Below the pieces are notes generated by a model. That model made no database searches and was not told the DNA's origin. It saw nothing but the letters and a program-made list of their open reading frames with translations. A stretch of DNA of 12,387 bases from Clostridiales bacterium. GTDB taxonomy: Bacteria; Bacillota; Clostridia; Peptostreptococcales; Anaerovoracaceae. Positions 2,206-12,071 of the stretch are shown one piece after another; the stretch's first letter is position 1; each line of letters starts with the position of its first letter. Both the position numbers and the translations under genes were made by a program. The DNA lies in NCBI GenBank assembly GCA_012799165.1, contig JAAZLU010000065.1:1-12387 (forward strand), in the 5' to 3' direction.

Positions 2206-3279
2206 ATGGCAAAGAGAGATAATCCGAGGCTCCGCCAGAGCGCGAGCCGCAGGGGAAAAAATAAGAGGAGCAATCACGAGATAGGCCCGGACGGCAGGCT
2301 TCAAAAGGAAGCACCATCCAAGTCTTTCGCTTCAAAAGGCGCAGGTCGCGGCAAAACGGAAGCGACAAAGAGCGGGCGTGCCAAACCCGTCGCAGCGACA
2401 GCAAAGCGTCAGGGCTTTTCGGATAAAAAATCCGCTCCGACGAGCCGCGGACGCAGGAGCGCAGCAAAGCCCGCCCTTGTAAAAGCTGAAGGCGCCCCTG
2501 CCAGTCGCTCCGCGAGGCGGGAAGCAGAGCTCGACCCGAATCTGATAATAGGCAGAAACCCTGTAATGGAGGCCATAAAGTCCGGAAGGAGCATAGATAA
2601 GCTTCTTATGCAGATCGATGCCGTGGGCTCGGCTAAGAAGATAGCCTCCATGGCTGCAGAGGCAAAGATAAATGTGCACTATGTCGAGAAGATTGTGCTG
2701 GACAAACTCTGCCCCGGCAGGCCCCATCAGGGAGTGGCGGCCTATGCCGCGGCAAAGAACTACGCGCAGCTGGACGACATATTTGCAGCCGCGCAGGAGC
2801 GTAGAGAAGATCCGCTAATAGTTATTCTAGACGGGCTCGAAGATCCCCACAACCTCGGCGCCGTTCTTCGGAGCGCGGACGGAGCGGGGGCTCACGGGGT
2901 GATTATCCCTTCGAGGCGCGCGGTGGGGCTCACGGAGGTCGTGGCTAAGGCCAGCGCCGGCGCCATCGAGTATGTGCCGGTGGTGAAGGTTACAAATATC
3001 AACCGCTGCATCGAGGAGCTTCAGGAGCGCGGCCTTTGGGTCGCGGCGCTGGATATGGACGGCGAGAATTATTCGGACGCGGAGCTTTCGGGGCCCATGG
3101 CGATCGTGATCGGCGGCGAAGGAAGAGGTATTTCGCGCCTTGCAAAGGAGAAGGTGGACAAAGTGCTCTCAATACCCATGAGGGGCAAAATAGATTCACT
3201 TAACGCTTCGAACGCCGCGGCGGTGCTGCTCTACGAAATCGACAGGCAGCGGCGGAACGAAAGGATGAGTCAGTTATGA
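2206..3279 (+). CDS. rlmB: 23S rRNA 2'-O-ribose methyltransferase RlmB (SpoU/TrmH family) with long basic N-terminal tail
   Basis: SAM-dependent SpoU/TrmH-family enzyme, expected to methylate the 2'-OH of a guanosine in the 23S rRNA P-loop. From the ATG at 2206 it has 357 residues. Residues 1-110 are a low-complexity tail rich in K, R, S and A. A substrate-binding domain starts at IIGRNPVMEAI (114-124). The knotted catalytic domain follows: motif 1 LDGLEDPHNLGAVLRSADG (208-226, with N216 and R222), motif 2 IVIGGEGRGIS (300-310), motif 3 IPMRGKIDSLNASNAAAVLL (323-342). TTG 2194 and GTG 2197 are in frame upstream, but GGTGA at 2196-2200 is well spaced for ATG 2206. The stop overlaps the DHFR start (ATGA). 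The homologous core is about 245 residues, so the tail is an addition. Exact rRNA target is family inference. Confidence 0.92.
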   Translation: MAKRDNPRLRQSASRRGKNKRSNHEIGPDGRLQKEAPSKSFASKGAGRGKTEATKSGRAKPVAATAKRQGFSDKKSAPTSRGRRSAAKPALVKAEGAPASRSARREAELDPNLIIGRNPVMEAIKSGRSIDKLLMQIDAVGSAKKIASMAAEAKINVHYVEKIVLDKLCPGRPHQGVAAYAAAKNYAQLDDIFAAAQERREDPLIVILDGLEDPHNLGAVLRSADGAGAHGVIIPSRRAVGLTEVVAKASAGAIEYVPVVKVTNINRCIEELQERGLWVAALDMDGENYSDAELSGPMAIVIGGEGRGISRLAKEKVDKVLSIPMRGKIDSLNASNAAAVLLYEIDRQRRNERMSQL

Positions 3280-3890
3280 GAGCGGTTGCGGTGGTCGATA
3301 AAAATTTAGCGATAGGCAGAGACGGGTCTCTGCTCTTTCGCTTACCCTCGGATCTAAAACAGCTGAAGGAGCTGAGCCTCGGGGGCATAGTCGTGATGGG
3401 TCGCAAGACTCTGGAATCCATGCCCGGTGGAAAGCCGCTTCCCGGCAGGCACAACCTCGTCCTATCCGGGAGCATGCAACCCGGAATAGAACTTATCGAA
3501 AACGAAGGGAAGCGCTGGGTTTTCGGCGTCTTCAATGATATGGACAGCCTGCTGGACTTCCTCGGATATCAGGGGAATCAGCCCTACGGCGGCTGGCTCT
3601 TTCGCTCCAAAAATATAAATATATTCGGCGGCGGCGAGGTATATAGGCAGTTCCTTCCGCTCTGCGATAGCATTCAGCTAACCGAAGTGGATGCGGAGGC
3701 AGAGGATCCGGATACATGGTTTCCGGATTTTCGCGCAGACGGCGATTGGAGGCTCGCACATATGGGAGAACCCGTTCTCGACGGGGGGCTCACATATAGG
3801 ATAAATACCTACGAGCGCATCGGTGACGAATGCACCGGATGTTCCGAAAGCAGCTGCTCGGGAGTCTGCTCCGGATGTGCAGGAATCTGA
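3276..3890 (+). CDS. folA: dihydrofolate reductase with cysteine-rich C-terminal tail
   Basis: Reduces dihydrofolate to THF with NADPH, restoring the folate oxidised by ThyA. DHFR landmarks: AVVDKNLAIGRDG (5-17), the acidic active-site residue D26 in LPSDLK, MGRKTLESMPGG (41-52), PLPGRHNLVLS (54-64), and the nucleotide-binding FGGGEVYRQF (117-126). At 204 residues it exceeds the usual 160-170 by a tail after residue about 182 with C186, C189, C194, C198 and C201 (CxxCx4CxxxCxxC), resembling a small metal-binding knuckle. Where most DHFRs have a Pro-Trp pair (LPWxLP), this one has Leu20-Phe21. The ATG overlaps the rlmB stop by 4 bp. The stop is TGA at 3888-3890, with no SECIS-like hairpin after it. 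Confidence 0.93.
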   Translation: MRAVAVVDKNLAIGRDGSLLFRLPSDLKQLKELSLGGIVVMGRKTLESMPGGKPLPGRHNLVLSGSMQPGIELIENEGKRWVFGVFNDMDSLLDFLGYQGNQPYGGWLFRSKNINIFGGGEVYRQFLPLCDSIQLTEVDAEAEDPDTWFPDFRADGDWRLAHMGEPVLDGGLTYRINTYERIGDECTGCSESSCSGVCSGCAGI

Positions 3891-9646: not shown

Positions 9647-9680
9647 ATGACGGCGGCAGCTCAGCTGCCGTCATTTTATC
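9647..9680 (+). terminator. intrinsic terminator after rpsI
   Basis: GGCAGC/GCTGCC stem with a TCA loop, extended by ATGAC/GTCAT around a three-base GGC bulge, then TTTTA. It separates the ribosomal operon from the selenoprotein operon. Confidence 0.85.
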
Positions 9681-9729: not shown

Positions 9730-9759
9730 TTGCACAAGAATAACCAAGGATAATATAAT
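9730..9759 (+). promoter_or_regulatory. promoter of the selenoprotein pair
   Basis: TTGCAC (9730-9735), 18-bp spacer, TATAAT (9754-9759), in an A/T-rich stretch just after the rpsI terminator. The expected leader (about 9766-9858) contains two small hairpins: GTGAC/GTCAC at 9795-9807 and GTGCGT/ATGCAC (with a G-U pair) at 9825-9839. The second sits just before the ribosome site GGGAGGTGA. Confidence 0.75.
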
Positions 9760-9858
9760 ATAATTAATGGGCGTGCCGGGTTTATTCGGACAATGTGACC
9801 GCGTCACTGAAATCTCTCGCTAAAGTGCGTATTATGCACATAACGGGAGGTGATGCCT

Positions 9859-10149
9859 ATGAAAATAACATTGACTGAAGATTTAAAGGACTACATGATT
9901 CAGGAAGGGCGCAAAAATATCATCGTCGAGGTGAAGAACTGTGTAACCTGAGGAGGTGTCTCAAGGACTATATCGGCAGGTCTTGTCGATGACGACATCC
10001 ATGTAGATGAGAGATACTTTATGACGGAGCAGACCGAATTGGGTAAAATATATTTGCCCAAGAGCGGAGTTCGCTACGGGAGCGAAGTAAAGCTTTCGTT
10101 TATGAAGCTGCTCTGGATGAAGCGAATCTTTATCGATGGAATTTACTAA
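9859..10149 (+). CDS. selenoprotein, HesB-like / CC-Se motif type, copy 1 (TGA at codon 31 = Sec)
   Basis: 96 residues when the TGA at 9949-9951 is read as selenocysteine; no long standard ORF covers it. Residues 1-30 run MKITLTEDLKDYMIQEGRKN to VEVKNCVT, then U31, GGVSRT, and a C-terminal half ending LLWMKRIFIDGIY before TAA. The Sec motif is C28-V-T-U31 (CxxU). The paralogue at 10240 matches before and after the TGA (about half identical, counted by eye), and a SECIS-like hairpin follows. The layout (LTxxLKxYM, then VEV, then Cys/Sec, then Gly-Val and a C-terminal beta region) recalls the IscA/HesB scaffold, but the terminal CGC of IscA is absent. ATG 9859 is chosen because GGGAGGTGA (9845-9853) is correctly spaced; ATG 9853 overlaps that site. 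Role unknown; redox or metal-cofactor handling is inference. Confidence 0.85.
9972..9990 (+). promoter_or_regulatory. bacterial SECIS element, copy 1
   Basis: Seven-pair stem 9972-9978 / 9984-9990 (one G-U) closing the five-base loop GGUCU (9979-9983). The loop starts 30 nt from the U of the UGA codon. The loop sequence matches that of the E. coli fdhF SECIS, and the distance falls in the known bacterial range. It should bind SelB to deliver Sec-tRNA while also encoding SAGLVD. Confidence 0.8.
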
Positions 10150-10169
10150 ACCTTATGCATTCTGTTAAC

Positions 10170-10215
10170 GGGGGCGAGCCTCGAAAGGGGACGGCCCCGC
10201 TTTCAGAGGAAAGCG
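10170..10215 (+). other. hairpins between the two selenoprotein genes
   Basis: A perfect 7-bp stem CGCTTTC/GAAAGCG with AGAG loop (10198-10215), preceded by a weaker fold in which GGGG 10171-10174 pairs with CCCC 10195-10198 around a CCTC-GAAA-GGGG mini-hairpin. The two share C10198, so the outer pairs compete. No T-run follows, so this is not an obvious terminator. The strong stem ends 11 nt before the GGAGG of copy 2 and could affect its expression or RNA processing. Confidence 0.5.
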
Positions 10216-10239
10216 AGCACACAGCAGGAGGTGGTACTC

Positions 10240-10536
10240 ATGAAAATCATACTGACCAAGGATTTGAAGGATTATATGCTGAAAGAAGGCAAGAAGAATA
10301 TCTTTGTCGAAGTGGAGACGAGCGGATGTTGAGTGGGAGTCTTTAAGACTGTGCTGGCAAGTCTTGTCAGCGACAATTTCCGCCCGGACGAAAACGAGTA
10401 TATGACAGTTGAGACGGAGCTTGGCAAAGTGTTTTTACCCAAGCCCGGAGTCAAAGTCAAATACGATGACGAAATAAAATTTTTCCTGCAAAGACAGCTG
10501 TGGATTAAACGGATCGAAGTTACAGGAATTAGCTAG
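10240..10536 (+). CDS. selenoprotein, HesB-like / CC-Se motif type, copy 2 (TGA at codon 31 = Sec)
   Basis: 98 residues with the TGA at 10330-10332 read as selenocysteine; starts MKIILTKDLKDYMLKEGKKN and ends QLWIKRIEVTGIS before TAG. Here the Sec follows the Cys directly (S28-G-C30-U31-V-G-V), so the motif is CU where copy 1 has CxxU. TSGCU aligns naturally with the TSGCSG loop of IscA, putting C30 at a cluster-binding cysteine. GGAGGTGG ends about 6 nt before ATG 10240. Lies 90 nt after copy 1 with no promoter visible between, so a two-gene operon is likely. Conventional calling would start a 67-codon ORF at the GTG right after the TGA, which has no good ribosome site and would lose the active-site half. 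I recall the NCBI family name 'CC/Se motif family (seleno)protein'; membership needs a profile search. Confidence 0.87.
10353..10371 (+). promoter_or_regulatory. bacterial SECIS element, copy 2
   Basis: Seven-pair stem 10353-10359 / 10365-10371 (one G-U) with loop AGUCU (10360-10364), again 30 nt from the U of the UGA. The outer base pairs differ from copy 1 yet stay paired, which supports selection on the RNA structure. Confidence 0.82.
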
Positions 10537-10570
10537 AATACATATTTCATTGCACGCGGAGTGGGGCTCG

Positions 10571-10590
10571 AAAGAGTCTCGCTCTTTTTT
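10571..10590 (+). terminator. intrinsic terminator after the selenoprotein operon
   Basis: AAAGAG / CTCTTT stem with a five-base TCTCG loop running into six Ts, 34 nt after the stop codon of copy 2. The stretch 10591-10732 beyond it shows no gene or clear structure. Confidence 0.7.
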
Positions 10591-10823: not shown

Positions 10824-12071
10824 ATGAAGAAAATTTTAACTTTCTTACTGATAGCTGCGATGCTGCTTGCAGTGGGCTGCAAAAAGAATGTTAGCAGCGA
10901 CCCTGAAGTACCCGACAACAACGACCCGAGCGAAGTTGTTTCGGATGTCAAAGAACCTAGCGACAATACGAGCGATAATACCGGAGACAGCGATAACAAT
11001 CAGACGGGTACGGATGATACTCAAACACCGGGCACGGAAGATCCCGGCAAGATACTGCCGTTTTCCATGCCATACGACTATGGCGATAATGTCTTGGTTG
11101 CTCGCGACGAGGCGGAGCTGCGCACTTTGCGCTGGGCTCAGGCTGCGGCGCGCCAAGTTGCCTACAATAAGGGTTATTTCCCCTGCGAAATCGAGATTAG
11201 TTCGATCGATTCCCTGAATCTGGGCATGGCGGCCCAGGACGGAGAGATGGTCGAGATGTACAGGGTATCGTATGTTATGAGCTATAACTTTATGATGTAC
11301 GGCGAAATTGAGGGTTACGAGGCTACGGGCCGCGGGTACATTCCGAGCGATCCTTCCACCGAAGCCCTGCTCGCCCTGTATTTCGATGATTATAACGGGC
11401 AGAGATATACGGTTATGGCAGGATGCTTTAGCGAGGCGGATGCACGGGAGGCTGCTCTTTCTGCGGGAGACGATGACCCGCTTAATCCTTATCGCAAGCT
11501 CGCCGCAGAGGCCATGGAGGAGACCCAAAGCCTTGTAGAAAATTCGATTAACGCGAATTACGGTCCGGACAGATGGAATAACCACGCACTTATAGACGAG
11601 AGGATAGGCCTTCGCGTAATAGGTTACGAAACGGTGTTTGGCCCGGGCAGTCTGGATAACTTGGATTCGCTCGGAATTGGCTATCGCGAGGAGAGCTATT
11701 ACCAACCCGGACACGGGACTTACGACGCTTGGATGGGGTTTGACTATCCCACGCTTGACGGTTCGTCGTACTTTACGGGTCTCAGTGGCAATCAGGTTCT
11801 TCTGAGCGTGCATACGAGCAATCCGGAAGTTGAAACTCCGCTGGGGATTCATCCGGGCTCCACAAGCACCGAGCTTTTGGCCAAGTATCCCGATGCTGAG
11901 GCTGGCAGCCCGCCGAATCTGTATGGCTTGGGAGATAATTACTATTTTTACTGCCCAAGTTCCATCGACTACGAAGGCGAAGAAGAATGGAAATACAACG
12001 GCCCCACCCTGCTCTTCGAGATGGATGGGGATGAAGTGGTCGGCATATCGGCTTATATGTTGCTGGATTAG
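10824..12071 (+). CDS. predicted lipoprotein of unknown function
   Basis: 415 residues. The N-terminus MKKILTFLLIAAMLLAVGC is a lipoprotein signal peptide with C19 as the lipidated residue, so the mature protein should be anchored on the outer face of the membrane. Residues 20-76 are an acidic low-complexity spacer of D, S, N, T, P and E, probably a flexible stalk. The folded part (about 77-415) shows no motif I recognise. The last 80 residues, from LGIHPGSTSTELLAKYPDA to LLFEMDGDEVVGISAYMLLD, look like the small 'GI..G.s..el...yp' beta module seen in other Bacillota lipoproteins; that is an impression, not a family assignment. Only four cysteines occur, including C19. It has its own promoter and the strong site GGGAGGTGA before ATG 10824, so it is probably separate from the selenoprotein genes. 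Confidence 0.85.
   Translation: MKKILTFLLIAAMLLAVGCKKNVSSDPEVPDNNDPSEVVSDVKEPSDNTSDNTGDSDNNQTGTDDTQTPGTEDPGKILPFSMPYDYGDNVLVARDEAELRTLRWAQAAARQVAYNKGYFPCEIEISSIDSLNLGMAAQDGEMVEMYRVSYVMSYNFMMYGEIEGYEATGRGYIPSDPSTEALLALYFDDYNGQRYTVMAGCFSEADAREAALSAGDDDPLNPYRKLAAEAMEETQSLVENSINANYGPDRWNNHALIDERIGLRVIGYETVFGPGSLDNLDSLGIGYREESYYQPGHGTYDAWMGFDYPTLDGSSYFTGLSGNQVLLSVHTSNPEVETPLGIHPGSTSTELLAKYPDAEAGSPPNLYGLGDNYYFYCPSSIDYEGEEEWKYNGPTLLFEMDGDEVVGISAYMLLD

Follow-up and report, generated by a model that had tools for sequence, protein, structure and literature searches.

Pair of adjacent genes interrupted at the same codon

Does an in-frame TGA that recurs at codon 31 of two adjacent and similar genes mark broken genes, a reassigned codon, or selenocysteine (Sec)? 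The question is raised by positions 9,859 to 10,536 of a 12,387-nucleotide stretch of Clostridiales bacterium DNA (family Anaerovoracaceae; assembly GCA_012799165.1, contig JAAZLU010000065.1), which was analyzed over its full length and is called the window below. Both genes most likely encode selenoproteins of the CC/Se group, as argued by family homology, the exchange of TGA and cysteine (Cys) among relatives, covarying hairpins of the Sec insertion sequence (SECIS) type, and known Sec genes in the same genome. We consider it about 95% probable that the locus is a tandem-duplicated two-gene unit in which each UGA is read as Sec with the aid of a hairpin and whose products are IscA/SufA-like.

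An earlier reading made from the letters of the window (the sequence-only reading) had pointed out the two TGA codons, and we found them as described (9949 to 9951 and 10330 to 10332), with strong ribosome-binding sites (GGGAGGTGA and AGGAGGTGG) ahead of the two ATG codons. Its by-eye identities between the two proteins, 19/30 on the N-terminal side of the TGA and 31/65 on the C-terminal side, proved exact on recount, and BLASTP aligned the proteins with 51/97 identities (E value of 5e-35). The sequence following the TGA is constrained in four pairs of relatives.

Homology to the CC/Se family

With TGA translated as Sec, the NF041239 profile (Moor_selen_rel, CC/Se motif (seleno)protein) matched protein 1 over residues 1 to 94 (E value of 8.6e-7, 29 bits) and protein 2 over residues 1 to 96 (1.4e-7, 31.5 bits), and a Cys/Sec redox motif stands at the conserved place in both (CVTU and GCU, respectively). 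Neither protein reaches the curated cut-off of 40 bits, and two further matches in the same bacterial family likewise score below it (30.3 and 21.8 bits). Because the proteins are homologous to NF041239 but score under its cut-off, the pair is, as judged by sequence comparison, a divergent branch of this family. The sequence-only reading had named the HesB-like and CC/Se families together; the latter assignment stands in this sub-cut-off form, whereas the HesB-like selenoprotein model TIGR01911 matched neither protein at an E value of ≤1. Pfam gave no significant match for either protein, PF01521 included. The accessible part of PMC13188914 counts the CC/Se family, with the motif CxxU, among the high-confidence predicted selenoprotein families, and a Moorella thermoacetica hypothetical protein of this family is tabled in the accessible part of PMC9312934.

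Across 41 genomes (the window's own and 40 relatives), NF041239 detected 24 places at an E value of ≤0.01, 17 of which have one internal TGA; among the seven TGA-free places, one (L050) looks like a chance match inside a larger protein. A 22-member profile searched against the same bacterial family (349 genomes) detected 64 places in 53 genomes, the window's two included; 41/64 have one internal TGA (39/62 when the window pair is excluded), 23 have none, and TAA or TAG occurs in none. Reading of all 41 TGA-bearing places put the TGA at the motif in each. Of the 23 TGA-free places, 12 were read, and Cys occupies the motif in 10; the two exceptions both belong to one array (genome G160, see below). 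At the order level, 139/393 genomes have a member at an E value of ≤1e-4, and among the matches listed, one carries two TGAs and two carry TGA and TAA. The match with two internal TGAs, at G460:C1:1935308-1935586, is possibly a two-Sec member. No family member was found in seven congeners of the window's genome, and the pair is therefore patchily distributed; a scan of named genomes returned no match with the two window proteins and two loci with the relatives from G157 and G158.

These counts bear on whether both genes are pseudogenes carrying nonsense mutations at the same codon. Both frames are broken by TGA, and the two order-level matches with TAA besides TGA look decayed, but a single TGA, with no TAA or TAG, recurs in 41/64 family-level matches, and the post-TGA constraint in four pairs of relatives, the covarying hairpins, and the strong ribosome-binding sites all speak against decay; pseudogenes are thus very improbable, and the sequence-only reading was right to doubt paired nonsense mutations.

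Less probable still is a change of the organism's code by which TGA would specify Trp or some other amino acid. The database proteins closest to the two window proteins (97 and 98% identity) do have Trp at the Sec position, as a code 4 gene call would give; they come from contigs of ≤1,130 and ≤1,028 bases, and we attribute their Trp, known from the proteins and not from the DNA, to gene calling that applied code 4 to a TGA. Both entries (P0003 and P0004) list Pfam PF28096, for which our local Pfam copy gave no match. Against reassignment, rlmB and the dihydrofolate reductase (DHFR)-like gene of the window terminate with TGA and Trp is encoded by TGG (31 codons in the 12 open reading frames examined), both as the sequence-only reading had held, and internal TGA is confined to the two candidate genes, the other ten frames having none. 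Moreover, the column holds Cys, not Trp, in aligned TGA-free homologues, and internal TGA was seen twice elsewhere in the genome, each time at a known Sec codon (selD and grdA). The pseudogene and reassignment readings were both rejected on UGA conservation, covariation, and the TGA-terminated neighbors.

Covarying SECIS-type hairpins

In both genes, a 7-bp stem is formed by positions +21 to +27 and +33 to +39 after the TGA, enclosing a loop of 5 nucleotides (nt), GGTCT in gene 1 and AGTCT in gene 2. The two stems share their inner four pairs (one being G-U), and the outer three all differ on both sides, exclusively by double compensatory changes. The same stem was compared in 21 family-level UGA rows, of which 12 and 18 were used in two covariation tests; G160c and G247 were omitted because they were gapped by the alignment, and G338 because it is a near-duplicate of G337. 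In the 12 genes, which had been picked for showing the stem, 77/84 cells were paired (91.7%), with 25 double-change cells and a covariation score of 0.775; none of 500 shuffles reached the pairing, the double-change cells, or the covariation score, and slid versions of the stem paired in 21 to 49%. Weaker measures were matched more often, by 25/500 shuffles for the double-change pair count and 201/500 for the pair-type count. With six genes that have a different best hairpin added, the 18 genes gave 81.0% of 126 cells paired and 34 double-change cells (0/500 shuffles), the two weaker measures being matched by 45/500 and 76/500 shuffles. In the Cys control, by contrast, 15 homologues had 35/105 cells paired at the same place and 41/105 one codon later, and an earlier set of 8 had 15/56. 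The stem covaries in the UGA relatives and not in the Cys homologues. Among 13 UGA members that belong to other families within the order, no common stem was seen at that place.

According to the accessible part of PMC13188914, bacterial SECIS elements have an apical loop of 3 to 9 nt with a G in its first two positions, an upper stem of 4 to 16 bp, a minimum free energy of ≤-7.5 kcal/mol, and a distance of 16 to 37 nt from the UGA. Both hairpins satisfy this geometry, with the loops given above, stems of 7 to 8 bp, and a spacing of 27 nt; the gene 2 hairpin passes on energy (-8.7 to -11.8 kcal/mol), and the gene 1 hairpin passes marginally (-7.6 kcal/mol), with another fold favored in a longer stretch. 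Six loci with the motif (S/T)CU(S/T)G (L115, L116, L118, L120, L060, and L062) carry a different, near-invariant hairpin, TGCTGA-AGTT-TCAGCA, with the loop at +18 after the UGA, which is possibly another SECIS class.

The weak gene 1 hairpin would suit a reading in which the UGA is a regulated stop, so that low selenium yields a 30-residue peptide and the full-length protein is a minor product, a behavior inherent to UGA decoding as generally understood. The post-UGA constraint in relatives and an IscA-like fold spanning the full length argue against it, and we regard this as improbable compared with regular decoding of both UGAs as Sec.

Sec machinery and points against Sec decoding

Several results count against Sec decoding. 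Of 20 further UGA genes assessed at the pre-set stem position, 2 have at least 6/7 pairs (96/140 cells overall); in 17, most of them close relatives, a similar hairpin stands exactly one codon later (loop at +32, free search), and 1 has neither. Single-sequence folding of either hairpin region was not clearly better than that of shuffles, so the SECIS case rests on covariation. The sequence-only reading had proposed the Sec machinery of the genome as a check and its absence as counterevidence; selD is present, but in the fragmented assembly (259 contigs, 89% complete), searches failed to find selA and tRNA-Sec, and the selB search produced only eight sub-cut-off matches, which, taken literally, goes against it. 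Of the two selB matches read, the best of the eight was rejected as EF-Tu, and one on contig C23 is presumably TypA/BipA-like, judged by eye; five weak tRNA-Sec matches were rejected as tRNA-Ser, -Leu, -Arg, -Leu, and -Gly.

However, selD is present (379.7 bits, one in-frame TGA), and the missing genes map to an assembly gap. The genome also has grdA (257.5 bits, one in-frame TGA), and among its congeners, 6/7 have tRNA-Sec above the cut-off and 6/7 have grdA with one TGA, neither being found in the seventh. The gene order in congener G006 is selA-selC-selB-grdX-(grdG-like)...grdA, and the selA-selC-selB block occurs likewise in two other congeners inspected. The window genome's grdA contig aligns to this region up to position 12268 of L051, where it ends, some 475 bp beyond the selB end at 11793; because it breaks so close to the place of selB, the absence of selA, selB, and tRNA-Sec most likely reflects loss into an assembly gap.

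Tandem copies and a link to the sel genes

The tandem pair, which the sequence-only reading singled out, is rare but not unique: in 4/53 genomes with matches (the window's, G157, G160, and G282), members are separated by no more than about 0.5 kb, and two of these besides the window's have two adjacent UGA copies. G157 has two neighboring members, both with TGA; G160 has three within 1.3 kb and one about 1 kb upstream, two of them with TGA; and G282 has three neighboring members, none with TGA. Two such arrays are L110:2743-5233, with four CC/Se paralogues (UGA in two, no Cys at the motif in two), and L111:2450-3549, with three (motifs CC, RTC, and GHC; no UGA).

In a 39-member tree, the window genes are sisters (100/98), the G157 pair joins G158 (100/99), and the members of the G282 array form one group (100/100); as these copies group separately, tandem duplication probably occurred at least three times. 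The sister group of the window pair, G341 and G145 (91/80), has the motif CxxU like gene 1, so the motif of gene 2 probably shifted to CU after duplication.

The tandem UGA pair of G157 (L109:508-4755) directly follows the Sec genes, in the order selD-tRNA-Sec-selA-selB-CC/Se-CC/Se (selA and selB named by profile, the cut selD end by similarity, and the tRNA by ARAGORN). The order in G158 (L124, L134, and L135) is selD-tRNA-Sec-selA-selB-CC/Se, by similarity and ARAGORN. The position of CC/Se genes directly after selD-selC-selA-selB in these two relatives suggests a tie to selenium metabolism.

Predicted fold and proposed function

The predicted fold of both proteins is IscA/SufA-like over the whole chain (PDB 1r94, 1x0g, and 2d2a), with 8 to 17% sequence identity in the structure matches. 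PDB sequence searches gave one match with the family profile, which is not credible (E value of 0.73), and no match with one Cys relative. Weak PF01521 matches in 3/39 relatives also point to the A-type carriers. These carriers have a C-terminal Cys-x-Cys, whereas both window proteins are without Cys after residue 31 and, as noted, without a PF01521 match. HesB-like selenoproteins are likewise small, and TIGR01911 matched 2/39 aligned relatives weakly, but neither window protein; their motif is UxGP in the accessible part of PMC13188914. The pair's tie to IscA/HesB would thus consist of the predicted fold and the weak matches of a few relatives. With NF041239, by comparison, the pair shares whole-length homology, size, the place of the Cys/Sec motif, and UGA in many members, differing in its score, its tandem arrangement, and its combination of one CxxU and one CU protein. 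Several UGA genes per operon are also found in grdA-grdB and other multi-selenoprotein operons, but those named in the accessible part of PMC13188914 join different families, whereas the window's two genes are paralogues.

We infer that tandem duplication gave rise to a co-transcribed two-gene unit, in which SelB and tRNA-Sec would read each in-frame UGA as Sec, guided by the hairpin loop that starts 28 nt past the UGA. The products, of 96 and 98 residues, would adopt the fold of A-type iron-sulfur (Fe-S) carriers, each with only two chalcogen residues, which are C28-x-x-U31 (protein 1) and the neighboring C30-U31 (protein 2). Selenol/thiol chemistry at the motif loop is most likely, either as reversible selenenylsulfide redox or as binding and transfer of Fe-S, metal, or selenide as a soft ligand, and a homo- or heterodimer may be the active form. 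A more specific and doubtful idea is a heteromeric, selenium-dependent A-type carrier whose CxxU and CU subunits would offer two thiolates and two selenolates to a cluster, metal, or selenide, with the family handling selenium or Fe-S traffic on behalf of the Sec pathway itself; the latter part is prompted by the member that ends the selD-selC-selA-selB cluster in a related genus.

Features of the locus and its surroundings

Table 1. Coordinates of the putative selenoprotein gene pair and flanking elements in the window
Feature	Position	Strand	Basis
Terminator-like hairpin 3' of rpsI, parting the pair from the ribosomal operon	9647..9674	+	Consensus scan
Sigma-70-like promoter, 10/12 matches, 17-nt spacer, TATAAT	9731..9759	+	Consensus scan; not evidence of function
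Gene 1 ribosome-binding site GGGAGGTGA	9845..9853	+	Sequence
Putative selenoprotein gene 1, 96 codons, CxxU (...NCVTUGG...); ATG 9859, stop TAA 10147-10149	9859..10149	+	NF041239 profile and alignment
Gene 1 in-frame TGA, putative Sec codon 31	9949..9951	+	Cys or TGA in the same column of relatives
Gene 1 SECIS-type hairpin, stem TATCGGCA/TGTCGATG, loop GGTCT, 27 nt from TGA to loop	9971..9991	+	
Gene 2 ribosome-binding site AGGAGGTGG	10226..10234	+	Sequence
Putative selenoprotein gene 2, 98 codons, CU (...TSGCUVG...); ATG 10240, stop TAG 10534-10536	10240..10536	+	NF041239 profile and alignment
Gene 2 in-frame TGA, putative Sec codon 31	10330..10332	+	Alignment with relatives
Gene 2 SECIS-type hairpin, core stem GCTGGCA/TGTCAGC, loop AGTCT, distance from TGA as in gene 1	10350..10375	+	
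Terminator-like hairpin and T-run 3' of gene 2, closing the unit	10558..10585	+	Consensus scan

In the five congeners that gave a full-length match, rpsI is 82 to 84% identical to that of the window, and in the remaining genomes searched the identity is ≤82%. This fits the contig belonging to this genome, short of proof. The rplM-rpsI arrangement is conserved across congeners, and relatives of the pair were not found in the 6 to 7 kb past rpsI of G007 and G003; G006 is uninformative on this site because its contig stops 78 bases past rpsI. The window had no match to Rfam at the gathering threshold. The 90-nt intergenic gap (10150 to 10239) contains many inverted repeats (by eye, GGGGACGGCCCC and GCTTTCAGAGGAAAGC) without a T-run, perhaps serving mRNA processing or control. 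Elsewhere in the window, the DHFR-like protein (3276 to 3890) has a Cys-rich tail (CTGCSESSCSGVCSGCAG), and positions 10824 to 12071 encode a predicted lipoprotein-like protein of 415 residues with no Pfam match.

Implications

To the already catalogued CC/Se family, the present analysis adds a tandem pair of mixed CxxU/CU type, SECIS-type hairpins related by compensatory changes, a predicted IscA-like fold, and a link to the sel operon. In the literature searched, including the accessible parts of PMC1794560, PMC13188914, and PMC9312934, there is no description of a tandem CC/Se pair or of an IscA-like fold for the family, and none of the sought terms occurs in the accessible part of PMC12013277. 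The two closest database entries, with Trp at the Sec position, suggest that automatic gene calls may lose or mistranslate such genes. The locus places putative paralogous selenoproteins side by side, with two Cys/Sec motifs and SECIS-type hairpins that differ by compensatory changes, and an uncharacterized selenoprotein family gains a predicted IscA-like fold along with a genomic tie to the Sec machinery, which makes its function testable.
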